The notes beneath the pieces were generated by a model. The model saw only the letters and a program-made list of their open reading frames with translations. It was not told the origin of the DNA and made no database searches. Positions 24,503 to 40,288 of a stretch of DNA of 64,000 nucleotides are shown one piece after another. How positions within the stretch are numbered: the first letter of the stretch is position 1; each line of letters opens with the position of its first letter. Location of the stretch: positions 124,001 to 188,000 of the forward strand of contig NZ_FNWU01000002.1 of NCBI RefSeq assembly GCF_900108505.1, in the 5' to 3' direction. The position numbers were made by a program, and so were the translations under genes. This DNA comes from Halopenitus malekzadehii (GTDB lineage Archaea > Halobacteriota > Halobacteria > Halobacteriales > Haloferacaceae).

Positions 24503-25447
24503 TCAGTACTCGATCGCGCCGGCGTACCGGTCCAACAGGATGACGATCGCGCCGCCGAGGACGGCCGCGAGGCCGAACCGCGGCGCGACGGCGCTCCAGG
24601 AGGACCCCGACTCCTCGAGGACGCGTCCCACCTCGACGATCGGCGCGCGCAGCGCGCCGACGATCAGGCTGACGAGGAACGCGACGGTGGCGGCCCGGTT
24701 GGCCGCGAGCGCGCGGCGGACCGCATGCGCGACCGTGAACAGGCCGAGGACCCCGCCGCCACAGAAGACGACGACCGGCGGGGCGGCCTCGACCAGCGCG
24801 TCCGTCCCCGCCCCGGAGACCGCGCCGATGACGGCGTCCGTGAACGTCGAGAGGGCGTCGGTCATCCGTTCGTACTGGCCGAGGATCACGAGCACGAGCG
24901 ACCCCGAGACGCCGGGCATCACCATCGCGCTCACGGCGAGCGCGCCCGCGAGGAAGACGACCGCGAGCCCGTCGCCGAGCGCGCCCGCGGCGTACCCCGA
25001 GACGAGGAAGGCCACGAGGAAGCCGGCGACTGCGGCGCCCTTCCGACCGGGCGTCGAGAGGTCGACCTCGTGGCGGAGGACGACGGCGGAGGCGGCGATC
25101 AGCCCGAAGAAGAACCCGAAGGTGGCGACCGGCGCGGCCTCGAGTAGGTGCTCGACGACGCGCAGGACGGTCACGATCGCGGTCCCGATGCCCGCCCCGA
25201 GCACGAGGAGGAACGGGCCGTCCATCTCCAGGAACGCCGCGCGGGCGTCCGGGAGGTTCGCCGGGCGCACGCCTGCGAGGACGCGCCGGGCGCGGTCGGG
25301 ATCGATCGCGGTCACCGCGGCGATGAGCCGCTCGTAGATGCCCGTGATCAGCGCGAGCGTGCCGCCCGAGACGCCGGGGACCGCGTCCGCACACCCCATC
25401 GCGACCCCGCGCAGGTAGACGCCGAGCCACTCGGGGGCGTCGACCAT
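24503..25447 (-). CDS. DUF368 membrane protein, putative polyprenyl-(dolichyl-)phosphate transporter
   Basis: 314 aa, about eight membrane segments. Two inverted family motifs are clear: MGCADAVPGVSGGTLALITGIYERLI near the N-terminus and VMPGVSGSLVLVILGQYE near residue 180. Bacterial DUF368 proteins (PopT) have been identified as transporters that recycle undecaprenyl phosphate across the membrane. In an archaeon the matching lipid would be dolichyl phosphate, released outside by AglB. The start codon directly abuts the stop codon of aglB (zero bases between), which supports a shared function. Role by analogy. Confidence 0.85.
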   Translation of the reverse strand: MVDAPEWLGVYLRGVAMGCADAVPGVSGGTLALITGIYERLIAAVTAIDPDRARRVLAGVRPANLPDARAAFLEMDGPFLLVLGAGIGTAIVTVLRVVEHLLEAAPVATFGFFFGLIAASAVVLRHEVDLSTPGRKGAAVAGFLVAFLVSGYAAGALGDGLAVVFLAGALAVSAMVMPGVSGSLVLVILGQYERMTDALSTFTDAVIGAVSGAGTDALVEAAPPVVVFCGGGVLGLFTVAHAVRRALAANRAATVAFLVSLIVGALRAPIVEVGRVLEESGSSWSAVAPRFGLAAVLGGAIVILLDRYAGAIEY

Positions 25448-28400
25448 CTAGGATGCGGCGGGCACGGGAGCGGCGGTCGACTCCCCGAGTGCGGCCGGGG
25501 CGACCCGGGAGGTCGTCGCGTTCCCGTCGTCGGTCGTGGCGCCGCCGTCGTCGGTGGTTCCGTCGGTCGTGGCGTCGCCGTCGTCGGTGGTCACGTTCTC
25601 GGTGGTGTTCCCGTCGGTCGTGTTTTCGTCGGTCGTGTTTTCGTCGGTAGCGTTCTCGTCGGTGGCGTTCTCGTCGTCCTCGAGCAGCGATTCCTCCTCG
25701 AGTTCGACCGTCGAGACTGCGTCGTTCTCGCCGACGACCTGGCCCTCGGTCACGGTGGCGTTGCCGGTAGCGTAGGTGAGGCTGCCGTTGCTCGCGGTCG
25801 GCGCGGTGCCGATCTGGTAGGGACCGGTCGCGCGGACGCTCACGTTGGTGTAGCCGTTCTCGGGGCCGTACTCGTCGTAGCCGGTCGTCGAGTAGGGGAC
25901 GTGGAACGAGAACTCGCCGTTCTCGTCGGCGGTGGCGAACTGCCGGTAGACGAACGTCTCGTTGGAGTTCGGATAGGTCATCTCGACGGCCGCCTCGACC
26001 TCCTGGCCGGGCTCGGCGCCGGAGCCCTCGATGGTCGCGCCGGGGACCTTCTCGAAGGTCTTCACCCAGTTGGCCTGGGTGTCACGCAGCTGTGCGTTGA
26101 AGTACTGGCCGGCGTCCGACTCGGTCGCGTGGACCAGCCGGTACTGTTCGAGGGCGTCGACGCGCTCAGTTGGGACCGACCCGATGCCGCCGATCTGCGC
26201 GGTACCGCTTTGGTTCTCGACGAACGACTCCGCCTGGGACATCGAGTTGAAGGCCTGCGCGAACCGCTCGCCCTCGGTCTGCGGGACCGTCCGGACCGTG
26301 GTCTGCGATCCGTCGGCGGTCTGGACCGGCGTCTGGTCCCAGTTGAGCACGACCGGCTCGGGGTCCTTGGCGCTGCCGTGGTACTCGTAGAGCCGGACCA
26401 TCAGGCTCTCGTAGTAGCGCTGCTCGCGCACCTGCGTGGCGACGCTGAGGCCGCCCTGCTGGTTCTGCTGGTAGATGGCCCCGAGGAAGTCGCTTTGCGT
26501 CTCGTTCCCGTCGTCGTAGAAGGTGACGGGCGCGGTGAACTTCGACTGCGGGTGGACCATCTGCCAGTCGACCATCACGTAGCGGGTGTGCTCGCCCTCC
26601 GTGCTCTGGCCCGCGAGGACGTCCTGCGCGCGCTCCTCGCTGGGCGCGAGCAGGAAGTTCGCGGCCCGGCCGGCGTTCTGCTGGAAGGGGTTCGCGTTGG
26701 GGATGCGCTCGGCCCGGGTGGTGATCCAGTGGCCGTAGTCCCACCACGACTGGACGCCGTAGGCGCCCTCGGGGTACTCGAAGTCGCCGTCTTCGGGGCG
26801 CTCGTAGGTGCCCTGGTACTCCATCGCGTTGTCGTGGCCCTCGAGCTCGCCGGGATGGGGCGTCTCCTCGTTCATCCACTGGAGGCTCTCGTCCCACTCG
26901 ACGACGCTGCCGGGGCCGGTGTTCGCGCCGGCGGCCCACACCGGGGTGGCGGTCGCGACGAGCGGCGCGAACAGCACGAGCACGACCGCGCCGAGGATCA
27001 TCACCTGCCACCCTTGGACGTCGTCGACGACCGCGGTCACGGACTTGCCGCGGACGTCGAGAGCGTCGATCGCGAGCTGGAACGTGTAGCCCGCGCCGAC
27101 CGCGACGACGACCGCGAGGTAGTAGTTGAACCGGCCCTGGGTGAACGCCATCGCGAGGATGAACAGGCCCCAGACGACGAAGTAGAGCTCGCGGGCGGCG
27201 TAGCGTTCGAGGTAGGTCGCGCCCACGAGGAACGCGGTGGCGATCGCCATCCCGACGACCTGCCAGGAGAGCCCGACGAGGCCGCCGATCGCGTCGTAGG
27301 CGCTCGGGGCCACGTAGACGCTGCCGATGAGGACCGCGGCGGCGACGACGTAGCCCGTCTCGCGTGTATCGTCGCTGCGGATCAGCGGGCGCGCCAGGAC
27401 GTAGAGGATCGCGGCCAGCGCGAAGAAGAACGCGAAGCCGTATTGGGAGATCACGAAGGGCGCGAACTCCGACTGCATCAACGGCGGCTGTGCCTCGCCG
27501 ATGGTCCGGGTCGCGGCGGCGGTCGAGAAGGCGATGGTTCGCAGGAGGTTGTTCGCGATCGTTCCCCAGGCGGAGGGGACCGCGACCGCGAGGACGCCCA
27601 CCGAGGCGACGATCAGGCCGCCGACCGCGGCGGGGTACGTCCGGACGTCCAGATCGCGGTCGTCCCACTGGCGCGCGAGGAACGCGAGGAACGCGCAGCC
27701 GACCGCGACACCGAGCGGAAGGACGACCTGTAACAGGGAGTACGCAGTCGTATTGAAGGTGAACTCGTTCAGCGGGATGATCATCAACAGGCCGGCAACA
27801 CCCATCGAGACCGCGCCGACGAAGGCGATCGGCTCGGGGCTATCCTCGTGAACCACGTCGCTCGTGATCTTGATCACGAGGAAGATCCCGGTGAACCCGA
27901 CCAGCATCACGCCGGGCTGCCAGGTGGCCATATATAAGGCGATCGCGAGGCCGGCCGCGGCCGCGTAGCCGATGGGTTTCTTGAGTGCGTTCCAGTCCTG
28001 GTCAACGACGAGTTCCCAGACGGGCTTCTCGCGTTCGGCGACGTCGAGCGCGAGGAAGACCGCGAGGACGGCCAGCGTGGAGAAGAGGACTTCGCCGGCG
28101 TGGTGGTCCGGGAAGCCGACCAGCGTCTGACTGAAGAAGGTGCCGGGGATGAGTCCGAGGATCGCCACCGCAATGACGGCGGAGAGGCGGTCGACGAACC
28201 GGCGCGCGATGAAGTAGGTCGGGATCGCGACCGCGGTGCCGACGATCGGCGCGATCACGAGCATCGCGCGCAGCAGGCCTTCCTCGCCGCCGCCGGTGAT
28301 CGGCGTGGCGACGACGGAAAAGACGGCGATGATGTGGTCCCAGAGGGTGCCGAAGTGGCCCGGATCCGTGCCGAACGGGAATCCCGACCACGCCTCAAAG

Positions 28401-28633
28401 GGCATCGTGTTCGGCCAGTGTTCGAGGAGGTAGGACGTCTCCCGGAAGTGATACCAGGCGTCATTCCCGCGGAAGTACACCTGTCCGTCGACGATGAAGT
28501 TGCCGTACGCGCGGAGGCGCGAGTACAGCATCACCGCGAGGACCGCGACGATCGCGGGGACGTGGTACCACCGTTCGAGGAGGTCGAGAACGGAGGCGCC
28601 CGCGCGATCGCCAGGGTCAGTCTGATCGCTCAT
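25448..28633 (-). CDS. aglB: Dolichyl-(phospho)oligosaccharide--protein glycosyltransferase AglB (STT3 family)
   Basis: 1061 aa, the normal haloarchaeal length. Transfers the dolichol-linked glycan to Asn in N-x-S/T sequons on the outer membrane face. An N-terminal membrane domain with about 13 helices carries the first acidic motif GNDAWYHFRET. The catalytic WWDYG motif (GVQSWWDYGHWI) is at about residues 625-635, followed by a globular outer domain. The last ~80 residues are a Thr/Asp/Asn-rich tail with seven N-x-T sequons. Transcribed towards the DUF368 gene with no gap, and divergent from a GT2 gene, so it anchors the glycan island. Confidence 0.97.
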   Translation of the reverse strand: MSDQTDPGDRAGASVLDLLERWYHVPAIVAVLAVMLYSRLRAYGNFIVDGQVYFRGNDAWYHFRETSYLLEHWPNTMPFEAWSGFPFGTDPGHFGTLWDHIIAVFSVVATPITGGGEEGLLRAMLVIAPIVGTAVAIPTYFIARRFVDRLSAVIAVAILGLIPGTFFSQTLVGFPDHHAGEVLFSTLAVLAVFLALDVAEREKPVWELVVDQDWNALKKPIGYAAAAGLAIALYMATWQPGVMLVGFTGIFLVIKITSDVVHEDSPEPIAFVGAVSMGVAGLLMIIPLNEFTFNTTAYSLLQVVLPLGVAVGCAFLAFLARQWDDRDLDVRTYPAAVGGLIVASVGVLAVAVPSAWGTIANNLLRTIAFSTAAATRTIGEAQPPLMQSEFAPFVISQYGFAFFFALAAILYVLARPLIRSDDTRETGYVVAAAVLIGSVYVAPSAYDAIGGLVGLSWQVVGMAIATAFLVGATYLERYAARELYFVVWGLFILAMAFTQGRFNYYLAVVVAVGAGYTFQLAIDALDVRGKSVTAVVDDVQGWQVMILGAVVLVLFAPLVATATPVWAAGANTGPGSVVEWDESLQWMNEETPHPGELEGHDNAMEYQGTYERPEDGDFEYPEGAYGVQSWWDYGHWITTRAERIPNANPFQQNAGRAANFLLAPSEERAQDVLAGQSTEGEHTRYVMVDWQMVHPQSKFTAPVTFYDDGNETQSDFLGAIYQQNQQGGLSVATQVREQRYYESLMVRLYEYHGSAKDPEPVVLNWDQTPVQTADGSQTTVRTVPQTEGERFAQAFNSMSQAESFVENQSGTAQIGGIGSVPTERVDALEQYRLVHATESDAGQYFNAQLRDTQANWVKTFEKVPGATIEGSGAEPGQEVEAAVEMTYPNSNETFVYRQFATADENGEFSFHVPYSTTGYDEYGPENGYTNVSVRATGPYQIGTAPTASNGSLTYATGNATVTEGQVVGENDAVSTVELEEESLLEDDENATDENATDENTTDENTTDGNTTENVTTDDGDATTDGTTDDGGATTDDGNATTSRVAPAALGESTAAPVPAAS
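25594..25680. repeat. 15-bp-type repeats encoding the sequon-rich AglB tail
   Basis: The sequence cgtcggt-g/c-gtgtt-c/t-t recurs about five to six times. Read on the minus strand it encodes repeats of Asp-Glu-Asn-Ala/Thr-Thr, so each unit adds one N-x-T site. Confidence 0.7.
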
Positions 28634-28719
28634 TGTCAGTGACGAGTCCCAAAATCCGCATAAGCCTTGTCATATCCCGATCGGAACGGGACGGAAGGTC
28701 TAAACGGGGACGTTTCCGT

Positions 28720-29664
28720 ATGTCCGGTGTGAAGGTCTCGGTCATCCTCTGTACATACACGCTGGATATGTACGACCACTTCGCGGAGGCCGCGGACAGC
28801 GTGCTCTCGCAGACGCACGACGACGTGGAACTGGTGGTAGTCGTGGATGGGACTCCGGCGGTGTACGACCGCGTCGTCGAGGAGTACGGCGACCGCGAGA
28901 ACGTCGTGATAGAGTGTAACGACGAGAACGTGGGACTGCTGGAGAGCCGGAACCGCGGCGCGGAGATCGCGTCGGGCGACGTGGTCACGTTCATCGACGA
29001 CGACGCAGTCGCCGACGAGGAATGGGTCGAGCGGCTGGTCCACGCCTACGAGGAGAAGGACGCCATCGCGGCGGGCGGGAAGATGGTTCCTGAATGGGTC
29101 GCCGGGAAGCCGTCGTTCCTCCCCGAGGAGTTCTACTGGCTGGTGGGTGTTACACATCGCGGGTTTGCGGATGGACCCGGGGAAGTACGAAACACGTTCG
29201 GATCGAACATCTCGTTCCGGCGTGACGTGTTTCTGGAACTCGACGGGTTCGACATCGATATCGGCGGTCGGAAAGGTGATAAGAATCTGCAGGGCGGGGA
29301 GACCGAGTTATGCGCGCGAATGCGGGAAGAATACGGGCAGGGGGTATGGTACGACCCGGAGGCGGAAGTTGCACATAAGGTGTTCGAGTACCGGACAAGA
29401 TTCTTCTGGTTGCTCGATCGAGCATTCTGGCAAGGATACTCGAAACGAGTAATGGAGTCATTCGTTGATAATGACGGGAGAGAAGAAAGTGATTATCTCA
29501 AGCGACTCGTAACAAACTTTGTGCCCGACCGTTTCCAATCTATATTCCGGAATTTGTCACTTTCCGATGTGAGTAAACTTCTCTCGATCTTCGTCTTTAC
29601 TGGCTCTGTCGTAGTTGGATATTTTTACGCACATATACGATTAATAAGTGATTCATCTTCGTAA
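28720..29664 (+). CDS. Family 2 glycosyltransferase, mosaic GC content
   Basis: 314-aa GT2 enzyme, likely adding a sugar to the dolichol-linked N-glycan. Start ATG 28720 (MSGVKVSVILCTYT); the earlier in-frame start overlaps the aglB promoter. GT-A motifs: VSVILCTYTLDMYDHF, VVVVDGTP, LESRNRGAEIASGDVVTFIDDDA (the metal-binding D-D-D), and NISFRRDVFLELDGFD with the later GGETELCARM. It resembles the AglG/AglE/AglI group by context and form. The C-terminus has a hydrophobic segment (IFVFTGSVVVGYFYAHI) that could anchor it in the membrane. The first ~430 bases are GC-rich like the host, the rest AT-rich: a recombination join inside the gene. Confidence 0.88.
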   Translation: MSGVKVSVILCTYTLDMYDHFAEAADSVLSQTHDDVELVVVVDGTPAVYDRVVEEYGDRENVVIECNDENVGLLESRNRGAEIASGDVVTFIDDDAVADEEWVERLVHAYEEKDAIAAGGKMVPEWVAGKPSFLPEEFYWLVGVTHRGFADGPGEVRNTFGSNISFRRDVFLELDGFDIDIGGRKGDKNLQGGETELCARMREEYGQGVWYDPEAEVAHKVFEYRTRFFWLLDRAFWQGYSKRVMESFVDNDGREESDYLKRLVTNFVPDRFQSIFRNLSLSDVSKLLSIFVFTGSVVVGYFYAHIRLISDSSS

Positions 29665-29764
29665 TGAACCAATCTATTATAAACGACACAGCCAGGGAAT
29701 TATCGTAATACAGAACATTCTGTACATAAGATTATATAATGAACAAATTCAATCGGAAAAATCA

Positions 29765-30892
29765 ATGTCCTCTGAACAAGATCTCTGTATAGTCAGTCAT
29801 CCTCTCGGCAACGGAGGTGGTACAGCACTCAAGTCGCTTCTTCGAGTTATTAAACCAAACGCGGATCCGTCGGTCGTTGTCCTCGGTGAGTATACTCCGG
29901 AGAACGACGGAATCGAACTAACCTCTGTCGGATCAGAGTATGGAAACCAGGGTATCATCTCAACAGTCTGTATCTTTCTTCTAAATCAAATCCGATTAGC
30001 GCGTCATCTTGCTTCCCGTCCCGAAGAAACGGTGTTGTTTTTCGGAGCAACGACATACCTGCTTCCGATTCTCGTTGCAAGGGCCGTAGGAAAGACTGTC
30101 GCAGTTGAACCTCGAGGTCATCTAGCCCGATCTCTGTATTTCGAGTTTCGAGATCGGCTACCAGATCCCATCGCAAGAGCGCTATCGGCAATGGTCTACA
30201 TCCTTGATCGAACCGGAATGGTGATCGCGAATTATGTTATCACGCTTTCACCAGGTATGGCCTCTGACCTTGGGCTTGATCCAACGTCTCCAACTGTCTT
30301 GCCAAATGGTGCGTGGGATGTCGACCACAAGAAGTTCTCAATCGTTAATCCGCCTGCGAAACGCGAGAGAACGATCGCCTTTATTGGGCGATTTGAGCCC
30401 GAAAAAGGGATCGACAGAATGGTTACGATCACAGATGCAATCTCCTCAGAGACGACGGTCCGGTTCATTGGTGATGGATCCGGTCGGGAGCTTATTGAGC
30501 GTGAGCTTCACGAACCGATCAACACAGGACAGGTAATAATTGATGGCTGGGTTGACCACGATGAACTTCCGAATTTGCTTAATCAGTGCCGCCTGCTGGT
30601 AGTACCGTCGCGAACCGAGGGGTTACCAACGACAATCTTAGAGGCATTCGCGTGTGGTGTATCCGCAGCCGCAACACCGGTTGCTGGTATCCCTGACATC
30701 GTCCACGATGAAGAAACTGGGATCCACATCAACTCTGATACGCCTGAAAGAACAGCAGAACGGATCGATCAACTACTAGAGAGTGAATATATCGAATTAG
30801 GCAAAAGCGGACGTGATCTAGTTGAGTCAGAATATACCTTTCAGCAAGCCGTGGATCGGTATGAGAAAATTATCGAAACAATCTGTACGTAG
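29765..30892 (+). CDS. Family 4 glycosyltransferase
   Basis: 375 aa, GT-B fold. The C-terminal half shows the retaining GT4 signature: TIAFIGRFEPEKGIDRM (Rossmann start), IDGWVDHDELPNLLNQC, and the nucleotide-sugar site RTEGLPTTILEAFACGVSAAATPVAGI. Start ATG 29765 (MSSEQDLCIVSH); upstream in-frame codons are AT-rich and unlike protein. The gene is markedly AT-richer than aglB, as expected for horizontally acquired glycan genes. It follows the GT2 gene in the same direction with about 100 bp between. Sugar donor and acceptor are unknown. Confidence 0.9.
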   Translation: MSSEQDLCIVSHPLGNGGGTALKSLLRVIKPNADPSVVVLGEYTPENDGIELTSVGSEYGNQGIISTVCIFLLNQIRLARHLASRPEETVLFFGATTYLLPILVARAVGKTVAVEPRGHLARSLYFEFRDRLPDPIARALSAMVYILDRTGMVIANYVITLSPGMASDLGLDPTSPTVLPNGAWDVDHKKFSIVNPPAKRERTIAFIGRFEPEKGIDRMVTITDAISSETTVRFIGDGSGRELIERELHEPINTGQVIIDGWVDHDELPNLLNQCRLLVVPSRTEGLPTTILEAFACGVSAAATPVAGIPDIVHDEETGIHINSDTPERTAERIDQLLESEYIELGKSGRDLVESEYTFQQAVDRYEKIIETICT

Positions 30893-30910
30893 GAGCAAAA
30901 TAAGTTGAAT

Positions 30911-31093
30911 ATGGAGATCAAAATAGACGACGAGACGGAGGCGATCTTTCAAGAGCGAGCAAAACACTCGGAATATGAGTCAGCTGCTGAGTACGCAGCA
31001 ATGGTATTGGAAGTCGTTGCTGAAGAATTAGCTGATGAGGAAACACCCAATGAAGAGATGCGAGATCGGCTTTCGGATCTTGGTTATCTTTAA
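30911..31093 (+). CDS. Small acidic protein ending in LGYL
   Basis: 60 aa (MEIKIDDETEAIF...), 18 bp after the glycosyltransferase and probably cotranscribed. The helix ESAAEYAAMVLEVVAEELA recalls ribbon-helix-helix (CopG/ParD) proteins, but no toxin is adjacent. It ends in RLSDLGYL, the same tail seen at the end of three phosphatase-superfamily proteins in this window, while the convergent phosphatase-superfamily gene just 3 bp away lacks that tail. Function unknown. Confidence 0.7.
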   Translation: MEIKIDDETEAIFQERAKHSEYESAAEYAAMVLEVVAEELADEETPNEEMRDRLSDLGYL

Positions 31094-31096
31094 TTA

Positions 31097-32641
31097 TTAC
31101 TCGAACTGGTTTTCCCGAATGATACGTCGGATCCGTTCCCGCTCCGAAATTCGAGCGTTCATTTCCCGATAACTCACCGGTTGTTCACTCGCAGCCACAT
31201 CTGAAGCAAATACCTCAGTAGCGACCTCTCCATCGAGATCACGGGGCAAGTCGTAACCCCGAAGATGGAGAATGGTAGGTGCGAGGTCAAGAATTGATAG
31301 TGGTTCTACCTCTCCTTCATCGAAGCTCGGTCCAGTGGCGGCGAATAATCCTTCCTGCTTGTTCTCAGCCGCCCAGCCATCATCCCGTGGTTCAGTGAAT
31401 ACTGTTTGCCGGCCAATGCTTCCTTTGATATGTATCCCTGGTGCTTGGTCCAGTACAAGGTCGGGACCGTCAGAAACGTATGACCCGGAATACACCTCCT
31501 CGGCTCTGTACACGTCACGAACAACTGACTCACCCGTTGGTGTTGTCAATTTACGGAGTTTAGTGATCAATTCCTTGCGAATACGTTCATACTTCTCGTT
31601 GTTCTCATCAACCGTCAGATATACTGGGCCTTGCCCACTTGCAAGTACGGTTGAGTGCTCCCAGTCAACGTTTGAGGTCTTGCTTTCGTGAATAAGTTCG
31701 CCGCTCTTGTCGGGAATAACGTTAAGGAGTTGCTGCGGAGCTAGACGCTTCGCGATATCTTGGAGACCGAAGGCTGAGATAATACGAAGTAGTCGATCTC
31801 GGTTGATTCCAATGCGGTGCATAAAACGAGCGGCCTTAGTATCAAGAGTTAAATAGTTCTCATTTTCAAGCCAGGTATTAACGTGAAAAACCCAGTTAAT
31901 CGCGTTCGACCCGTGATCACTCATAAGGATTACGTCATACCCCTCATCAAGGAAGGTTCCTAGGTGTTCATCGATCACCTTCCATCCTCTGAGCGTGTAC
32001 TCATCATCCCAAAAATAGTGCTGGAGGGAATTGATATAGAAAGTCGTCACTTGGAGGAACGTCAGGTCATATTCATAGAATAGATCACGGGCGACGGTAA
32101 AGCGTTGGTCAATGGCGTCAATGATTTCTTCGGCCGCGACATCAGGTGTCGCACGCAGTTCATTCTTGATCGTTACACGATAGTCGTATTTATCGCGGAG
32201 TTGTTGCTCAAGTTCCGGTGGATGGGCAAATCCTGCATTCGCGCCATCAGGTGCCCCCGCAATCAAGAACGGATCAACCTCTTTCGGTGGATACGTAGTT
32301 GGGACACCGATTACTCCCGGTCGATCGTCCTCCTGAAGAAGTTCCCAGAATTCCGGTTGTTGATTCTTTCGATCCTGTGGGTAAAAGACTCGTCGTTCAT
32401 CCACGTCAATATTTTCCCACCAAAAAATGCCAAACTTACCTGGATTCTTTCCCGTAGCGTACGCTTTCCAATTTGGAGATGTGACTGGTGGAAGTACTGA
32501 ATGAAGATCACCGTGTACCCCCGATTCAATCGCGTGTTTGATGTTTGGAAGCTTTCCCTCTTTGATCCAGGGGTTCAAGAGTTCAAAGTGGGCACCGTCT
32601 AATCCGAAGACAATGGTGGCCGGGCGAGAGTCAGTCATCAT
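31097..32641 (-). CDS. Alkaline-phosphatase-superfamily phosphodiesterase-like protein
   Basis: 514 aa from ATG 32641 (MMTDSRPATIVFGLDGA; an adjacent ATG at 32638 is equally possible). Superfamily pattern: metal site VFGLDGAHFELL, nucleophile Thr in PPVTSPNWKAYATGKNPGKFG (the T-x-P-N context of nucleotide pyrophosphatase/phosphodiesterases), and the metal-binding MSDHGSNA. It has no Cys/Ser-x-Pro-x-Arg sulfatase signature, so phosphodiester hydrolysis or phospho-group transfer on glycan or lipid-linked sugar is more likely than sulfatase activity. Close relative in this window: the gene at 51055. AT-rich; ends 3 bp from the convergent small gene. Confidence 0.87.
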   Translation of the reverse strand: MMTDSRPATIVFGLDGAHFELLNPWIKEGKLPNIKHAIESGVHGDLHSVLPPVTSPNWKAYATGKNPGKFGIFWWENIDVDERRVFYPQDRKNQQPEFWELLQEDDRPGVIGVPTTYPPKEVDPFLIAGAPDGANAGFAHPPELEQQLRDKYDYRVTIKNELRATPDVAAEEIIDAIDQRFTVARDLFYEYDLTFLQVTTFYINSLQHYFWDDEYTLRGWKVIDEHLGTFLDEGYDVILMSDHGSNAINWVFHVNTWLENENYLTLDTKAARFMHRIGINRDRLLRIISAFGLQDIAKRLAPQQLLNVIPDKSGELIHESKTSNVDWEHSTVLASGQGPVYLTVDENNEKYERIRKELITKLRKLTTPTGESVVRDVYRAEEVYSGSYVSDGPDLVLDQAPGIHIKGSIGRQTVFTEPRDDGWAAENKQEGLFAATGPSFDEGEVEPLSILDLAPTILHLRGYDLPRDLDGEVATEVFASDVAASEQPVSYREMNARISERERIRRIIRENQFE

Positions 32642-32701
32642 CTTCAATTTGTGTGAGCGACAAATATATTTTCTCACAGCGATTCGAAGTTATATCACCA
32701 G

Positions 32702-33622
32702 ATGGCAGCTACGATTACCATCAGTCTTGAAGTTGAACTCGGCTGGGGTTTCCACGACCTCTCCGATCCTGGTGCTGTTCGTGAATTGAGTTCTGACGGA
32801 ACAACTGAACGCGAGGCGATGACTTGGCTGCTCGATAAGTGTGAACAGTATGACATTCCGATCACCTTCGATATTGTCGGACATCTTCTACTTGATTCAT
32901 GTTCCGGAAACCATCCGGGACCACATCCTGAAAGCTGGTTTGATCGCGATCCTGGAACCGATCTGTCGGCGGATCCTCTATTCTATGCACCAAAACTTGC
33001 CAAATCGATCAGGAATTCGGAGGTTAACCATGAACTGGCAACTCATACATTTAGTCACGTACTCTGTGATGAGGTTCGCCCAGAAGTAGTAACATGGGAA
33101 CTCAACAAAGTGGACCAACTTCACGATGATCCTGTGAAATCATTTGTTCCTCCAAGACATCGATCCCCGCCACGGTCGGTCCTAACTGACCATAACATCA
33201 AGACATTACGGAAATCGTCCGAAAATGAACCACCCACTCATCCAGTTCGACGTTTTTTCTGGATGCTCACGCACGAATATGAACAGTCACAATTGTATAC
33301 TGCAGATGGGCTGAGGATTACGTCGACGGATAGATTAATGACGCTCTCCTCAAATACACTCTCTCGAGGAGTATCACCTCCGCATCCCGCTTTTCAAATA
33401 ATTCCGGAGCAGATCCGATCGCGCTGTCATCGTTCACGGTTACTCAGATCAGTCGAAACCGCCATAGCGGAGGACGGACATCTTCACCTTTGGAGTCACT
33501 TGTATAACCTCGCAAATGAAACGCAGCAAGGTCCGATCGAAGTGCTGTTCAAACGTCTTTCTGAGTATATATCAAAAGGATTAGTAGTCATCAAGACAAT
33601 GGAATCACTCGCAAAAACGTAG
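32702..33622 (+). CDS. Polysaccharide deacetylase (NodB-like) family protein
   Basis: 306 aa. The motif ISLEVELGWGFHD carries an altered form of the first NodB Asp motif (Glu-x-Glu instead of Asp-Asp), and NHELATHTFSHVLCDE is the His-x-x-x-His metal motif; FVPPRHRSPP matches motif 3. It would remove N-acetyl groups from sugars if active; the first motif is divergent, so activity is uncertain. AT-rich. Divergent from the phosphodiesterase-like gene with a ~60-bp shared promoter region. Confidence 0.82.
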   Translation: MAATITISLEVELGWGFHDLSDPGAVRELSSDGTTEREAMTWLLDKCEQYDIPITFDIVGHLLLDSCSGNHPGPHPESWFDRDPGTDLSADPLFYAPKLAKSIRNSEVNHELATHTFSHVLCDEVRPEVVTWELNKVDQLHDDPVKSFVPPRHRSPPRSVLTDHNIKTLRKSSENEPPTHPVRRFFWMLTHEYEQSQLYTADGLRITSTDRLMTLSSNTLSRGVSPPHPAFQIIPEQIRSRCHRSRLLRSVETAIAEDGHLHLWSHLYNLANETQQGPIEVLFKRLSEYISKGLVVIKTMESLAKT

Positions 33623-33669
33623 GTTTATAATTTATCAATACATAACTTCAAATACATTTATTTCATATT

Positions 33670-34842
33670 CTATTTACTCTTTAGCGAGCGCTCAACGATT
33701 GTATCAGCAAATCCTTTCCAGGTGTGATTCCTCAGTACATATTCTCGCCCACGTTGACCCATTGCCTCTAATTCAGAGTCATCGAGTTCAGCTAACATTT
33801 CAATAGCTGTCGCAATATTCTCGGATGATACGGAGTCGACCAACTGGCCAATGTCTCGATCAGCTACAAACGTCATATCATCCACATTCTGAACTATTAA
33901 TGGACGTTCACAGGCAAGATACTCAAAACACTTGATCGGTGTCGCTGACCCTTGGTGACTTACGCCGTACATCACATCACACGCAGATATGTATCGATAC
34001 ACCTCATCGTGCGGTACGTATCCAGTAAAATGTATACGGTCGATAATCCCGAGATCTTGGGCTGTCGAACGAAAGTCACCTAATCTAGGGCCGTCGCCTA
34101 CTACGAGAATCTCAACATCGCATCTTCCAAGATCATTGACTGCCTCAAACAGTTCGGGGAGCGCGTGGTATGATTTCATGGTTCCAACAAATCCCACGAC
34201 AAATGATGATTCACCAAGATCTGTATTGATCTCTTTCCTTGTACCCATCTTCGAAATAGGTCGGAATCGATCCGTATTCACGGCATTAAAAAGAACCACC
34301 GCTCCTTTCTGGTCGGAGCTTCTCAGTTGGTCTGTGTCCTGTTTAATCTCCTCACTCGCAGTGTAGACTTGGTCGGCAATTCGGACGTTATACTGATATA
34401 CTCTCGTGAGGAGTGAACTAAACCGCAGCGTCTTGTAGTGATATCCTCGAGACAAGAGAACGTACGGAACATTCCGTCGAGAAGCAAAAAATGCTGGAGC
34501 GATGAGAAGTGGTGCCATTCTGGCGATAATCAGATCCGGGTCAATATCGTCCAAGGTAGCTCTCAATGCTTGAGATAGTCGAAGAAACGACAGTACGTGA
34601 CGCACTCCATCGATGTTAATATCGGTCGAAGTGAAATGAATAAAATCATCGACAGCCTCCGCTAAGTCAGTAGCGTATTGTTTACTCGGCTCTGGACAAA
34701 GAACGGTTGTTTCGATGTCGGTATGATCACAGAGAGCAATAGCGATCTCCTTCGTTGCGACGTTGTGGCCCTCGGTTCCAGCCAGATCTGCTTTGGTAAT
34801 AAACAGAACCCTTGCCTCGTCATAATTTGCTCGGTCACTCAT
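33670..34842 (-). CDS. Family 4 glycosyltransferase
   Basis: 390 aa, GT-B fold. N-terminal domain LFITKADLAGTEGHNVATKEIA with DPDLIIARMAPL; C-terminal domain VVGFVGTMKSYHALPELFEAV, DRIHFTGYVPHDEVYRYISACDVMYG and the donor-site region SATPIKCFEYLACERPLIV. It starts 3 bp after the stop of the upstream sulfatase-like gene and so shares its transcript. AT-rich. Donor unknown. Confidence 0.9.
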   Translation of the reverse strand: MSDRANYDEARVLFITKADLAGTEGHNVATKEIAIALCDHTDIETTVLCPEPSKQYATDLAEAVDDFIHFTSTDINIDGVRHVLSFLRLSQALRATLDDIDPDLIIARMAPLLIAPAFFASRRNVPYVLLSRGYHYKTLRFSSLLTRVYQYNVRIADQVYTASEEIKQDTDQLRSSDQKGAVVLFNAVNTDRFRPISKMGTRKEINTDLGESSFVVGFVGTMKSYHALPELFEAVNDLGRCDVEILVVGDGPRLGDFRSTAQDLGIIDRIHFTGYVPHDEVYRYISACDVMYGVSHQGSATPIKCFEYLACERPLIVQNVDDMTFVADRDIGQLVDSVSSENIATAIEMLAELDDSELEAMGQRGREYVLRNHTWKGFADTIVERSLKSK

Positions 34843-34845
34843 TAA

Positions 34846-36351
34846 TTAGAGATACCCCATATTCGACAATTGCTCCTGTGTCTCGTCATCTACGTCAATT
34901 CGATTGAGTTTTCCGAGTTTTTCTAAGCGATCCTCCGAAAAGTCAGCGACAGATTGTGGAGCCTCTTCGAATGCTGTGACTTCTCCATCACGCTCTGCGA
35001 AGCGCGTTCCGTCCGACTCACAGATCATCCTCCATTCATCCTCGTACGCTGCTACGGAATCTCGAACGACGCGTTGTGCAGCTGTATCCCGGTCCACGTT
35101 TGGGTGTTGCTCGTAGAAAGATTCATCGCCGAGTGCCGGGTATTCACATACGACACGAGGCGAACCCAACGCGGACGCGTCAATATTGTTGACTCCATTA
35201 TTAGACTGGCTGACCTCAAGAACAACATCGTATATATCAGCTAGGGAGAACAATCCTTCAATAGAACTGGAGTCTAAGTTCGGATTGGAAATAACTAACG
35301 GAACACGACAGAGATCATCGCTCAGCGAAGCTTCGTGTCCGAATCGACGGTGTCCATAACGATCTTCATCACCGATATTCTCCCCGTGGTCCGATGTAAC
35401 GATAACGAGCGTATCATCTCTGATATTATTTTTTTCAAGAGCGTCTAATAGTCGGCCAAGGTGACGATCAACCGACTCAACTTCACCCGCATACAGTTGT
35501 TGAAGAATCTCAATGTCGTCGTCGTCAACATCCCCATCTTCAACGCGGCGGATAAACTCCCACGGGTCCGCGATCTCGTCATTCAGCCGCTTTAATTCTA
35601 AATCATCAAGTGATTCGTCCAAATATTTTCGCTGCAGATCCTCCGGTGGAGCGTATGGCCGATGAGTATCCATATAGTTCGCAAAAATAAAAAACGGTTC
35701 GTCGGCAGCGGTTCCACGTTCAATGTAGTTGGTGATGGCCGTCGTGTTCCTCTCGGGTGTGTACGTTTCCTCTATTTCGTTACGGAATACGCTGTGTGGG
35801 ACCTTCTGTAGCGGGGGAAATACCTCACGTGAAACGTGATTGAGAACGACAGAGACGAGGTTCGCGAGGCTCTTTACGGGATAACGGTGTGACAGTGAAC
35901 GACGGAGGTAGTCAGTAAGAAGCGTGGATTTCGGATCGCCGTCATTGAGTTGACTTCGCAGGTTACTATAAACATCAAGACCTTCGACATAGGGTTCTGG
36001 ACCCCGCGTTGATCGGAAATCATCGAAGGCCTCATCGAATCCCCACAGTGGGCTTGCAAATCCGTTTCCGGAGGCCCCGTAGCACAAGTAGCCCTCGTCT
36101 GATAATTCTTCGACAAGGTCGGTTGGAATGTTGGACTGACTCGGCTGCGTCACTCCGTGTTTATGCGGCGGTTCTCCAGTAAATAATGAAGCGTGAGATG
36201 GGAGTGACCACGTTGCTGGGGCGATAGCATTCTTGAACCAAACGTTGGATTGGCCCAACTCAACGAGATTTGGTGCGTACTCTTGCGCGTAATCAAGTCT
36301 ACACGCATCCCACACTATGAAGAGGATATTGGGCTTTGTCCCCGAGACCAT
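34846..36351 (-). CDS. Sulfatase-like hydrolase/transferase
   Basis: 501 aa from ATG 36351 (MVSGTKPNILFIVWDACRLDYA). The sulfatase fold is clear: ILFIVWDACR metal site, nucleophile region APATWSLPSHASLFTGEPPHKHG, FIFANYMDTHRPYAPP, LVIVTSDHGENIGDE. The expected C/S-x-P-S-R reads S-L-P-S-H, so the nucleophile position is Ser and the Arg is His. It may therefore not be converted to formylglycine, and phospho-group chemistry is possible. The C-terminus is QLSNMGYL. Pairs with the downstream GT4 gene, 3 bp away. Confidence 0.87.
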   Translation of the reverse strand: MVSGTKPNILFIVWDACRLDYAQEYAPNLVELGQSNVWFKNAIAPATWSLPSHASLFTGEPPHKHGVTQPSQSNIPTDLVEELSDEGYLCYGASGNGFASPLWGFDEAFDDFRSTRGPEPYVEGLDVYSNLRSQLNDGDPKSTLLTDYLRRSLSHRYPVKSLANLVSVVLNHVSREVFPPLQKVPHSVFRNEIEETYTPERNTTAITNYIERGTAADEPFFIFANYMDTHRPYAPPEDLQRKYLDESLDDLELKRLNDEIADPWEFIRRVEDGDVDDDDIEILQQLYAGEVESVDRHLGRLLDALEKNNIRDDTLVIVTSDHGENIGDEDRYGHRRFGHEASLSDDLCRVPLVISNPNLDSSSIEGLFSLADIYDVVLEVSQSNNGVNNIDASALGSPRVVCEYPALGDESFYEQHPNVDRDTAAQRVVRDSVAAYEDEWRMICESDGTRFAERDGEVTAFEEAPQSVADFSEDRLEKLGKLNRIDVDDETQEQLSNMGYL

Positions 36352-36432
36352 ACGCGATTTCCAGCACAAGGGCGAATAACTGTTGTGATGACCTCGTAAG
36401 CTATATTGGTCCGACGACACCACTTCATCTGG

Positions 36433-37539
36433 ATGAGCGAACAACTGGAACGAGTCCCGTTCACGGACATCCATATGGACGATTCGACGAAGGATGCCGT
36501 GACCGACGCCTTAGAGAGCGGGAGGTACGTCAAGGGACCTCAGGTCGAACGCTTCGAAGACGAGTTTGCCGAGGCGTGCGGTACGAAGCACGCGGTCGGC
36601 CTCAACAGCGGAACGTCCGCCAACCTCCTCGGTCTCAAATCGATCGGCGTGGGTGATGACGACGACGTGTTCGTCCCCGCCCACACCTACTTCGCCTCTG
36701 CGAGTCCGATCCTGTCGCTTGGGGCAAACCCCGTCTTCGTCGACGTGCGTTCCGACACCTACACGATCGATCCTGACGACCTCGCTGCAAAGGTCGCCAA
36801 GTCTGATGCTGCGAAGGCGGTGATCCCGGTCCACATCTATGGACAGATGGCCGAGATGGAACGTATCAGTAAGATCGCCGAGGAAAACGGTCTCCGCGTC
36901 GTCTCCGACGCCTGCCAAGCCCATCTCGCGGAACGTGACGGGAAGAAAGCCGGCAGCATCGCGGACGTTGGAACTTTCTCGTTTTACCCATCGAAGAATA
37001 TGACCGTCGCAGGCGATGGCGGGATGCTCGTCACTGACGACGATGAGATCGCTCAGCGCGCTCGTGCGTTCCGCAACCACGGTCGAGACGAAGACGGAGT
37101 ACACCGACACTTGGGGCTTAATCACCGGTTAAGTGAGACACTCGCTGCGGTCGGCAGAGAGCAATTAAAACACGTCGACGAGTGGAACGATGGGCGGCGG
37201 CGGGCAGCAGAAACGTACGCCGACCGGCTCGACGACATCGACGAGGTGATCGTTCCAGCCGAAGACGAGGCAAACGAGCACGTGTATCACCTCTACGTCG
37301 TCCAGGTCCCGGACCGAGATGGGCTGCGTGAGTTCCTCGATGACCACAGTATTGACACCGGGATTCACTACTCGACGCCGGCGCACGAGCACCCGGCAGT
37401 GACCGAGCGAGTGGGTGAAACCACCGTAGAGTTCGCAGAGGAGCTGTGCGATCGGATCGTATCACTACCGATGCATCCCCGTATCACCGACGAAGAGGTA
37501 GAGTACGTCTGCGATCGAATCGAGGCGTACTACGAATGA
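36433..37539 (+). CDS. DegT/DnrJ/EryC1/StrS sugar aminotransferase
   Basis: 368 aa from ATG 36433 (MSEQLERVPF). PLP-dependent aminotransferase acting on 3- or 4-keto nucleotide sugars. Motifs: KHAVGLNSGTSANLL, VFVPAHTYFASASPI, VIPVHIYGQMAEM, DACQAHLA, and the PLP lysine in GTFSFYPSKNMTVAGDGGM; the C-terminal YHLYVVQVPDRDGLREFL. Its stop overlaps the next gene by ATGA. With that oxidoreductase and the following acyltransferase it forms the WbpE-like part of a Wbp-type pathway to UDP-2,3-diamino-dideoxy sugars (inference). GC content returns to normal here. Confidence 0.92.
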   Translation: MSEQLERVPFTDIHMDDSTKDAVTDALESGRYVKGPQVERFEDEFAEACGTKHAVGLNSGTSANLLGLKSIGVGDDDDVFVPAHTYFASASPILSLGANPVFVDVRSDTYTIDPDDLAAKVAKSDAAKAVIPVHIYGQMAEMERISKIAEENGLRVVSDACQAHLAERDGKKAGSIADVGTFSFYPSKNMTVAGDGGMLVTDDDEIAQRARAFRNHGRDEDGVHRHLGLNHRLSETLAAVGREQLKHVDEWNDGRRRAAETYADRLDDIDEVIVPAEDEANEHVYHLYVVQVPDRDGLREFLDDHSIDTGIHYSTPAHEHPAVTERVGETTVEFAEELCDRIVSLPMHPRITDEEVEYVCDRIEAYYE

Positions 37540-38522
37540 AGTACGGCGTGATCGGGACGGGCTATTGGGGATCGAACCACGCCCGCGTAGCGAGCGAACT
37601 CGCTGAAGAGGGTGTGATCGATTCGGTCGTGCTCTGTGACATCGACGAGGATCGGGTGGCAGACCTCGCGTCGTCGTACGGTGTAGAGTACACGACCGAC
37701 TATGAAGAGTTGGGTTCGATCGGTGTCGATGCGGCGACGGTCGCGACTCCTTCACCGACCCATCACGAGATCGCTACGCGACTCCTGAGCGACGGGGTCG
37801 ACTGTCTCGTGGAGAAGCCACTCGCACTCGACGCTGAGGACGCGTGGTCGATGGTGGAGACAGCTAGGGAAGAGGACGCGGTGTTGGGTGTTGGACACAT
37901 TTTCCGATTTCATCCCGCGTTGAGTGAGCTGAAACGCCGGATCGATCGCGGCGAGCTCGGGCAGATCAAGTACCTCAACACGACTCGGTTCTCGTTCCGC
38001 GTTCCGCGGGCGACGGCTGGCGCCCTCTACTCACTCGGCGTCCACGACATCGATATTTCCAATTATCTCCTCGACGAGAAGCCGGAGTCCGTCTACTGTA
38101 ACCTCGACAGCTTCGTCCGGGAGGATGTCGACGAGACGGCAACAATCGTCCTCGAGTACGACGGCGCCACGAGCGTGATCAACGAGTCGTGGCAGGTTCC
38201 GGTCCACGGAAAGAGACGGGACTTGGCCGTCGTTGGGACCGAGAAGTCGGCGTACGTGGACTATCTACAGGACAACGTCGTCGAGCTGTACGATAGCCGT
38301 GTGACCAACGAAGGCGGCGACCTCCGCGCACGGAGCGAGGGGAAGCAGGTCTACGAGACAGACAACGCCGAGCCGCTGAAGGTCGAAGTCTCCGAGTTCG
38401 TTGAGGCGTCGCGCTCTGGTGGATCATTCAACGCGTCCGGAACGGTCGGTGCGGAGACGGTTGATCTCCTACAACTGTGTGAGGAGTCGGCAATGAAGGG
38501 AAATACGATTCGGCTAGATTGA
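37536..38522 (+). CDS. Gfo/Idh/MocA-family sugar oxidoreductase
   Basis: 328 aa, NAD-binding: MKYGVIGTGYWGSNHARVA gives the Rossmann motif, ATPSPTHHEIA and VEKPLALDAEDAW (the EKP lysine) are family landmarks, followed by GHIFRFHPALSELK and SLGVHDIDISNYLL in the substrate domain. WbpB-like: would oxidise a UDP-sugar at C3 so that the neighbouring aminotransferase can act. ATGA overlap with the aminotransferase gene means they are translationally coupled. Converges with the acyltransferase gene, one base between the stops. Confidence 0.92.
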   Translation: MKYGVIGTGYWGSNHARVASELAEEGVIDSVVLCDIDEDRVADLASSYGVEYTTDYEELGSIGVDAATVATPSPTHHEIATRLLSDGVDCLVEKPLALDAEDAWSMVETAREEDAVLGVGHIFRFHPALSELKRRIDRGELGQIKYLNTTRFSFRVPRATAGALYSLGVHDIDISNYLLDEKPESVYCNLDSFVREDVDETATIVLEYDGATSVINESWQVPVHGKRRDLAVVGTEKSAYVDYLQDNVVELYDSRVTNEGGDLRARSEGKQVYETDNAEPLKVEVSEFVEASRSGGSFNASGTVGAETVDLLQLCEESAMKGNTIRLD

Positions 38523-38523
38523 G

Positions 38524-39012
38524 TTATTCATCCGCGTACCCGATGATCTCTGCGGGATTTCCGACAACAATCGCATTTTCCGGCACGTCTTCGACAACAA
38601 CTGCACCTGCACCTACAATTGCATTTCTACCGATCTCAACTGGAAGTATCGTTGCATTAGTTCCGATTGAAGCCCCTTCTCGGACGATTGTCTCTTTCCA
38701 TTCATCACTAGGAGGGTATAGATCGTTCACAAATTTTGCTCCATGGCTTACGAAGACATCGTTTTCAATAGTTACCAGTGAGCAGATAAATGCGTGAGAT
38801 TGTATCCGGCACCGATCCCCAATTTTGGCTCCCTCTTGGATTTCTACGAGGGATCCAATCATACAATTATTACCGATAGTCGCACCGTATACATTCACAA
38901 ACCGCCATATATGAGTGTTTTTTCCAACTTCAGAGTTATGTATAACCGAAAATTCTTCTATTTCAACACCTGATTTGATATCACAATCCGTGATGATCGA
39001 TTTACTAGCCAT
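38524..39012 (-). CDS. Hexapeptide-repeat N-acetyltransferase (WbpD-like)
   Basis: 162 aa of left-handed beta-helix (hexapeptide) repeats: SIITDCDIKSGVEIEEFSVI, NTHIWRFVNVYGATIGNNC, and IGTNATILPVEIGRNAIVGAG. The start resembles WbpD-like UDP-sugar N-acetyltransferases (VIHNSEVGKNTHIWRFV), and HGAKFVNDLYPP holds an Asn-Asp pair of that family. Would acetylate the amino group added by the DegT enzyme. Unusually it runs opposite to its pathway partners, and it is much AT-richer, so it may have arrived separately. Confidence 0.88.
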   Translation of the reverse strand: MASKSIITDCDIKSGVEIEEFSVIHNSEVGKNTHIWRFVNVYGATIGNNCMIGSLVEIQEGAKIGDRCRIQSHAFICSLVTIENDVFVSHGAKFVNDLYPPSDEWKETIVREGASIGTNATILPVEIGRNAIVGAGAVVVEDVPENAIVVGNPAEIIGYADE

Positions 39013-39283
39013 TGACTATTCTAACTGAGATGGAGATATTTGGTGTTAACTATATTATTTCCAACAGTACATCAATCATTAAACGAAACATGCCTGTATC
39101 CCTGTAGGCTTCACAATAATTCTCATAATGACAAGAAGGCTTCAGCAGAGCCTCTCTTTCGAAATTCCAGGCGGTTTCTCATTTTCACGCTCAATCAGAG
39201 ATGGTCATCTGGACACTACCTCTCTCGACCTAACGATACAAATAAGGGCAACGGCGGCCTTCAAAATGAGAGACGACGTTGAT
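39013..39283. other. Divergent spacer between acyltransferase and GT4 genes
   Basis: 271 bp, AT-rich, with several possible TATA-like runs. An in-frame extension of the + strand gene back to 39128 exists, but its translation (Ser/Arg-rich) does not look like a glycosyltransferase start. Confidence 0.4.
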
Positions 39284-40288
39284 ATGAACGATATTCTATT
39301 TCTTACCACAGGGACGAGTGTCTTCACGACGAAGGACCGTGAGATGCTGGAGGAACGTTACAATGTGACTACCGTAGAGATGAACATTCGAAAAGAACCC
39401 ACCGATTTCATAACCCTCGTGCAGGAAATCCGGCGACACGATCTCTTGTTTGGCTGGTTTGCCTCTCCCACCGTCAGCATCGCTACCCTCATAGCATCTT
39501 TCCTAAACACCTCCAGCATAATCATCACCGGAGGGTTCGATGTAGCCCGAGTACCCGAAATTGAGTACGGCCTTACGCTCGATTCAAAATACTATCACCT
39601 TACGAGAGCGGCTCTCACGGCAGCCAACAAGGTCCTCGCTGTCTCTGAGAGTAATAAAACCGAGGCGCTCGAGATTGCACCCACTGCACATATCGAGACC
39701 GTCTATGTCGGCGCGGTCGACACTGAGACGTTCGTCCCCGGCACCGATTCAGATGAAAATCTTGTACTCACTGTCGGAGCTGTCAAAACCCAAAACCTAG
39801 TAAAGAAAGGACTGAAGCCGTTCGCAGAAGCTAGCAAGTTGTTACCGGACAAAGAGTTCGTTATTCTCGGGGATCACGCTGACGAGGAAGCGGTCTCAAA
39901 ACTTCGCGCCTCCGGCGGAGACAACCTTTCACTCCCCGGGTACGCTTCGTTCGACGACCTCGTCAAGTACTACCAGCGAGCCGGAATCTACGTCCAAGCG
40001 TCGCGCCACGAATCATTTGGGATATCACTCGCCGAGGCGATGGCCTGTGAATGTGTGCCTGTCGCGTCTCGACACGGGTCGTTGCCTGAAGTCGTCGGCG
40101 AGACAGGGGTCTACGTCGATCCGGTCACTCCTAAAGGACTCAAGACCGGAATTATAGACGCCACTGAGCTCCCCGGAACGCCGGCAAGGCAGCGGGTACT
40201 TGAGAAGTTTAGGAAGGCTCAGAGACGTGACGCACTATATAGTCACGTTGATGATGTCTTGGAGCGATCCAGAACATATCGTGGGTGA
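39284..40288 (+). CDS. Family 4 glycosyltransferase
   Basis: 334 aa, start ATG 39284 (MNDILFLTTGTS) chosen because it opens with a beta-strand as GT-B enzymes do; ATG 39266 is an alternative. C-terminal donor domain: VLTVGAVKTQNLVKKGLKPF, NLSLPGYASFDDLVKYYQRAGIYVQASRHESFGISLAEAMACECVPVASRHGSLPEVV, the hallmark E-x7-E region of GT4. The 5' part is AT-rich, the 3' part less so. Followed 6 bp later by the flippase gene, hence one transcript. Confidence 0.9.
   Translation: MNDILFLTTGTSVFTTKDREMLEERYNVTTVEMNIRKEPTDFITLVQEIRRHDLLFGWFASPTVSIATLIASFLNTSSIIITGGFDVARVPEIEYGLTLDSKYYHLTRAALTAANKVLAVSESNKTEALEIAPTAHIETVYVGAVDTETFVPGTDSDENLVLTVGAVKTQNLVKKGLKPFAEASKLLPDKEFVILGDHADEEAVSKLRASGGDNLSLPGYASFDDLVKYYQRAGIYVQASRHESFGISLAEAMACECVPVASRHGSLPEVVGETGVYVDPVTPKGLKTGIIDATELPGTPARQRVLEKFRKAQRRDALYSHVDDVLERSRTYRG

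Follow-up and report, generated by a model that had tools for sequence, protein, structure and literature searches.

In the stretch of Halopenitus malekzadehii DNA analysed here (64,000 nucleotides; the window), the oligosaccharyltransferase gene aglB is followed by a gene for a DUF368 membrane protein. This protein is probably a haloarchaeal polyprenyl-phosphate translocase of the PopT type, which would return spent dolichyl phosphate after the AglB reaction. The family is a known one; its placement in this pathway is new. The gene is a strong and testable candidate for the carrier-return step of archaeal N-glycosylation, with the genetics of Haloferax volcanii already in place. The features concerned are as follows.

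24503..25447, minus strand: gene for a DUF368 (PF04018) membrane protein of 314 aa, candidate dolichyl-phosphate (polyprenyl-phosphate) translocase (Pfam 2.2e-60).
24902..24916, minus strand: second PGVSG motif, residues 178-182, at the short helix 182-188; a repeat of the first motif (from conserved columns, model helices and the alignment of the two halves).
25358..25378, minus strand: first conserved PGVSGGT motif, residues 24-30, at the short helix 28-35 (from conserved columns and model helices).
25445..25450, minus strand: junction, the aglB stop TAG abutting the DUF368 ATG (from the sequence).
25448..28633, minus strand: aglB, archaeal oligosaccharyltransferase of 1061 aa (STT3, AglB_core-like and AglB_L1 domains; TIGR04154).
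25451..25729, minus strand: sequon-rich AglB C-terminal tail, residues 969-1061, with seven N-X-S/T.
28633..29664, plus strand: aglG-like glycosyltransferase gene (glucosyl-dolichyl phosphate glucuronosyltransferase), divergent from aglB (NF041394).

The aglB product belongs to AglB, scoring 865.5 bits with the archaeal STT3 model TIGR04154 against a cut-off of 450. Its translation contains a WWDYG motif, a further mark of this enzyme. The sequence-only reading had drawn attention to a TAG followed at once by an ATG, and this is confirmed: both open reading frames lie on the minus strand at the coordinates above, and 0 bases separate stop and start (...GCC GCA TCC TAG, then ATG GTC GAC...). 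The divergent gene qualifies as an AglG equivalog (NF041394, 528.8 bits; cut-off 440). The match begins at residue 34, and the in-frame ATG at 28720 is the likelier start. Beyond aglG, positions 29648-40288 of the window hold further genes for GT4 glycosyltransferases, a type I phosphodiesterase, a sulfatase-family protein, a DegT aminotransferase, a GFO/IDH oxidoreductase and a hexapeptide acyltransferase; this gene set suggests an amino sugar in the glycan.

The assignment to DUF368, also made in the sequence-only reading, is well supported. PF04018, which Pfam currently describes as 'Undecaprenyl phosphate translocase-like', matches with 204.8 bits (gathering cut-off 26) over profile positions 1-229 of 246. 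The models for characterised polyprenyl-phosphate transporter equivalogs, NF052564 and NF052563, give 174.5 and 84.6 bits against a cut-off of 400; the protein is therefore filed under PF04018 and not as a VCA0040 or PopT equivalog, a point that counts against the proposed role. Like PopT/VCA0040 from bacteria, it has the PF04018 domain with PGxSG motifs in both halves. It differs from them in belonging to an archaeal branch, in being paired with an oligosaccharyltransferase and in sequence: identity is 31-34% to four bacterial members and one from Thermoplasmata (alignment A4). The expected substrate differs as well, dolichyl phosphate here as opposed to undecaprenyl phosphate for PopT/VCA0040.

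Across 46 DUF368 sequences, G14, M17, G18, P24, G25, S27, G28 and T30 are invariant, as are P178, G179, S181 and G182. The two halves of the protein are homologous (hhalign probability 98.0, E 1.5e-13); conserved motifs thus lie in two homologous halves and are shared with bacterial PF04018 members. An AlphaFold model built with the 46 sequences has a mean pLDDT of 93.3 and a pTM of 0.87. In this model, a PGxSG motif and a short helix in each half would suit an alternating-access carrier with two re-entrant elements. No solved structure matching by sequence was found, and a Foldseek search of the model against the PDB returned nothing at E <= 0.001, with BacA appearing only at E 1.4. The best VIA-align match was a ZIP transporter (Z 9.6, rmsd 4.1, 167 residues), in a range that is common for helical models. 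The fold search was dropped as a route to mechanism, since the PDB gave no useful match.

Recycling of undecaprenyl phosphate is the published role of DUF368 proteins in bacteria (Sit et al. 2022, PMC9876793). According to the same paper, the H. volcanii DUF368 protein HVO_RS12060 at least partially rescued alkaline growth of a V. cholerae vca0040 mutant; DUF368 is described as enriched in Halobacteria, and dolichol phosphate is mentioned. As evidence for the role proposed here, the rescue is limited by being partial and by reporting activity in a bacterium, not dolichyl phosphate transport. A concurrent paper by Roney and Rudner reportedly deals with bacterial DUF368 polyprenyl-phosphate transporters. 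The sequence-only reading had called the archaeal carrier transporter unestablished. This stands in that the literature searched contains no assignment, but the idea of archaeal DUF368 proteins handling polyprenyl phosphates is partly in print (PMC9876793).

A salt or pH homeostasis protein, lying beside aglB because surface glycosylation is also salt-responsive, would fit the enrichment of DUF368 in halophiles and the importance of VCA0040 at high pH and sodium (PMC9876793). However, that paper ascribes the bacterial phenotypes to lipid-phosphate recycling, and the gene's place beside aglB and aglG suggests a part in the chemistry of lipid carriers; a role of this kind, without lipid transport, is extremely improbable.

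The chemistry of the pathway accords with carrier return. The H. volcanii glycan is assembled on dolichol phosphate (PMC3871713), and AglB is catalogued as a dolichyl-monophosphooligosaccharide-protein glycotransferase (PMC8241124). With a monophosphate carrier, AglB transfer frees dolichyl phosphate directly, without a pyrophosphatase step, which bears out the view of the sequence-only reading that the reaction leaves a spent dolichol carrier. Dolichyl phosphate is a lipid of the type handled by DUF368 proteins in bacteria. In the proposed cycle, AglB would work at the outer face, attaching to Asn the glycan carried by dolichyl monophosphate and leaving spent dolichyl phosphate there; the two-fold pseudo-symmetric DUF368 protein would then bring this lipid back to the cytoplasmic leaflet, where enzymes of the AglJ/AglG type could use it again. 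For this gene and its product, we infer that transcription is most likely shared with aglB, that the substrate is dolichyl phosphate, that transport runs inwards and that it serves AglB specifically.

The opposite direction deserves mention, since the gene adjoins that of an oligosaccharyltransferase and lipid-linked glycans are said to be translocated 'by an unknown mechanism' in which AglR seems to take part (PMC4335974). A DUF368 protein carrying glycan-charged dolichyl phosphate outwards to AglB is nevertheless very unlikely: the function of the bacterial family is the return of bare lipid phosphate, the H. volcanii gene can partly replace VCA0040 (PMC9876793), and proteins of the AglR/Agl15 type are already candidates for the outward step (PMC3871713).

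Conservation of the gene pair was the means by which the sequence-only reading proposed to check its interpretation, and the pair is indeed conserved. Among genomes of the class Halobacteria, DUF368 is found in 386 of 391 and the AglB core in 384 of 391. Four draft genomes of 90-180 contigs that lack DUF368 (G186, G205, G306, G381) also have no AglB match, which may be an assembly effect. G021 has AglB, BacA and DedA, with DUF368 not found, and speaks against the proposed role. For gene order, one genome per genus (the first listed) was taken from 86 genera, 80 of them searched individually and six drawn from the class-wide results, and a pair was counted as linked if DUF368 lay on the same strand at most 6 kb downstream of the AglB core. 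By this measure, aglB and DUF368 are linked, with aglB first, in 60 of the 86 genera and in nine of the 11 families. Linkage is found in 22 of 23 genera of family f1, in all six of f2, in 11 of 16 of f3, in 10 of 26 of f4, in all ten of f6-f9, in one of two of f10 and in none of the three of f5 and f11. The g2 representative shares 83% identity with a named Halorubrum protein, which makes Haloferacaceae the probable identity of family f1; f4 probably corresponds to Natrialbaceae.

The recurrence of aglB is also evident from the side of DUF368. When open reading frames of at least 170 codons were collected around 91 DUF368 copies, over 4.5 kb on the upstream and 3 kb on the downstream side, aglB recurred beside 60, from nine families, and the next distinct neighbour beside 15 (with a mirror-frame cluster set aside). 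That cluster, found at 72 of the 91 loci, consists of minus-strand frames mostly overlying aglB and DUF368, and was interpreted as a mixture of such mirror frames and the divergent glycosyltransferase. An earlier neighbour count was conditioned on linkage, and its gene caller missed low-GC genes; the 91-copy count is relied on instead. In a scan of named genomes, aglB lies directly upstream in 11 of 19 haloarchaeal loci among the matches listed, including those of Halorubrum, Haladaptatus salinisoli, Halolamina, Haloglomus, Halorhabdus and Halostagnicola. The adjacency is far above chance. An AglG-like divergent neighbour accompanies the pair in 26 of the 60 linked loci (25 of 59, and the window).

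The zero spacing itself, although exact in the window, carries no weight of its own, being exact in only four of the 60 linked loci. Because spacing was measured to the possible DUF368 start nearest the aglB stop, the 34 loci that fall within -4 to +10 nt are an upper bound; one locus has no usable start. Four linked loci carry an insertion of 1.4-2.5 kb between the two genes, which in three genera (g3, g16, g19) is a UDP-glucose dehydrogenase gene of the aglM kind. Overall, this is ordinary operon spacing. As a sign of translational coupling or read-through, the zero spacing was rejected: stop and start share a frame in 18 of the 60 loci, while 13 and 29 loci have one or the other of the two remaining frame relations.

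The inserted aglM-type gene brings the published functional hint into register with the pair. In H. volcanii, aglB is HVO_RS12050 (PMC5131992, PMC7749143), also given as HVO_1530 (PMC8241124); aglF, aglI and aglG are HVO_RS12035, 12040 and 12045 in one of PMC5131992 and PMC7749143, with tags stepping by five; and the agl cluster, from aglJ to aglM, is bounded at aglM, HVO_1531 (PMC3871713). From the tag steps and the end of the cluster at aglM, HVO_RS12060 should be the gene after aglM, with order and strand as the tags suggest. It stands two tags from aglB, which would give the order aglB, aglM, DUF368 of the three genera above; in the window, by contrast, the two genes have no other gene between them. 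The H. volcanii cluster resembles the window in having aglG adjoin aglB and in its use of dolichyl monophosphate carriers; as published, it leaves out the next gene, which by its tag is DUF368. The available text of PMC9876793 makes no mention of aglB, N-glycosyl, S-layer or oligosaccharyltransferase, and no tie between DUF368 and aglB appears in titles or abstract openings of the literature searched, a body that excludes most subscription papers. Within it, the link between the rescuing protein HVO_RS12060 and aglB was previously unnoticed.

The 26 genera without linkage count against the proposed role, as they make the linkage dispensable: in 14 the two genes lie far apart on the same contig, in 11 they are on different contigs, and one lacks DUF368. 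Linkage also breaks within a genus; in g3 it is present in G014, while in G125, G288 and G333 the genes share a contig but are separated by 0.4-0.9 Mb. In a tree of 109 DUF368 proteins (quick IQ-TREE run with SH-aLRT support only; two long-branched methanogen rows of 111 left out), a single clade (support 99) takes in 28 of the 31 haloarchaeal copies that are unlinked, and this clade joins all f1 sequences in a group of 51 (support 100). The remaining three (G029, G054, G128) cluster with linked copies. The unlinked type, B, occurs in f3, f4, f8 and f11, and its grouping with f1 indicates that it arose once, near the family of the window.

Of the f4 genera, nine carry the linked type A alone (relocated in one case), two carry both types, 15 carry B alone and none is without either; these tallies are of genera, not of independent events. 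In nine of the 15 B-only genomes (loci L147, L149, L155, L158, L163, L164, L166, L168 and L169), the aglB locus keeps, on its downstream side, genes that come after DUF368 in the linked relatives from f4, namely those for a 703-residue protein, an AAA ATPase, a CCG protein and FAD oxidoreductases; DUF368 itself is gone. A weak DUF368-like match at the aglB locus of L149 (E 2e-4) was taken as noise. We read the pattern as a gain of B, after which A was cleanly lost, so that a relative in clade B seems to have displaced the linked gene; together with the retained downstream genes, the pattern implies that the function was kept when the gene was swapped. This would make it a clear case of a membrane transporter exchanged for a relative while its presence was maintained. 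Spread of clade B by plasmids was considered and set aside, as the single haloarchaeal plasmid copy among the matches listed, in Haladaptatus pallidirubidus, is too little for such a claim. On that 616-kb plasmid (L178, around 7000-8009), DUF368 lies in three pieces and frames and is probably a broken gene.

Replacement of the linked gene by the unlinked clade B, together with the 26 unlinked genera, would also be expected of a general recycler of dolichyl phosphate, serving all surface glycans (N-glycans, the Dol-P-mannose of AglS, exopolysaccharide) and lying next to aglB merely as a convenient operon. DUF368 genes in three genomes where AglB was undetected (G117, G225, G282) point the same way. 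Against this, aglB is by far the most constant neighbour of DUF368, across nine families. The transport mechanism would be the same and only the scope would differ; we regard the wider scope as possible, if rather unlikely.

Service to AglB could also be closer than the preferred reading of a PopT-type translocase proposes. The DUF368 protein might be the obligate second half of the AglB reaction, taking up dolichyl phosphate on its release in a complex or in close concert, with aglB and DUF368 forming one unit of S-layer N-glycosylation. In species where the two genes are directly paired, some of the aglB-deletion phenotypes in print would then include polar loss of the recycler, and where the linked gene was lost, its place would have been taken by a relative spreading from near the family of the window. 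In this strong form the proposal is decidedly doubtful; in general, aglB deletions may be polar on the recycler.

Outside the class Halobacteria, AglB is common without DUF368, which again tells against the proposed role. A phylum sample of 148 genomes, less 24 of the class, left 124, among which AglB is present in 114 and DUF368 in 21. The flanks of 20 of the 21 DUF368 loci, covered for up to 8 kb, contain no AglB (G473 was left out, as its match is split over two places), and linkage across archaea more widely was therefore rejected. In family f30, DUF368 and AglB are about 15 kb apart in three genera; this was not counted, since the intervening genes of L250, the one cluster annotated, are mostly housekeeping genes on both strands. 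In the Thermoplasmata archaeon AUK133 (L195, 1207-7864), an AglB-like gene lies upstream of DUF368, with AMMECR1 and an amidohydrolase gene in between and all four on one strand. The AglB-like product has repeated CarboxypepD_reg-like domains at its C-terminus; as a single case, the locus was not counted as linkage. Carrier return by DUF368, if it takes place, is a solution of the haloarchaea, and other archaea must rely on something else, perhaps DedA.

UptA/DedA proteins (PF09335) are also polyprenyl-phosphate flippases but belong to another Pfam family than DUF368. The window genome has one DUF368 gene and two DedA-family matches, the latter on contigs other than that of the window. It has no match to BacA, as expected if AglB releases dolichyl monophosphate. 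In a sample of 59 haloarchaea (G000-G058), BacA is patchy and present in only 30, while DUF368 is present in 58, among them each of the 29 that lack BacA. Even members of the window's genus differ in this respect, BacA being absent from G000 and present in G017. DedA-family proteins occur in all 59, a further point against the proposed role; redundancy is therefore likely, and deletion of DUF368 alone may have mild effects. DedA proteins could overlap with DUF368 in function, and the cycle need not depend on DUF368 alone.

The interpretation in the sequence-only reading is partly supported. It holds as regards the family, the conserved pair, the monophosphate chemistry and the partial rescue in V. 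cholerae; it is weakened by the uninformative zero spacing, the dispensable linkage, the occurrence of AglB without DUF368 elsewhere and the DedA-family proteins in all 59 haloarchaea sampled. Return of dolichyl phosphate by a PopT-type DUF368 translocase is strengthened by conservation, gene displacement and the published rescue, and stays a plausible reading.

The C-terminal tail of AglB is itself rich in sequons. Over the 60 linked loci, the last 90 residues contain 230 N-X-S/T sequons, compared with 73.3 +/- 7.3 after shuffling (maximum 96 in 500 shuffles) and 72 in the reversed tails. The region from residue 301 to the tail is also enriched (416 versus 200), and H. volcanii AglB has been reported to be N-glycosylated (PMC8241124).
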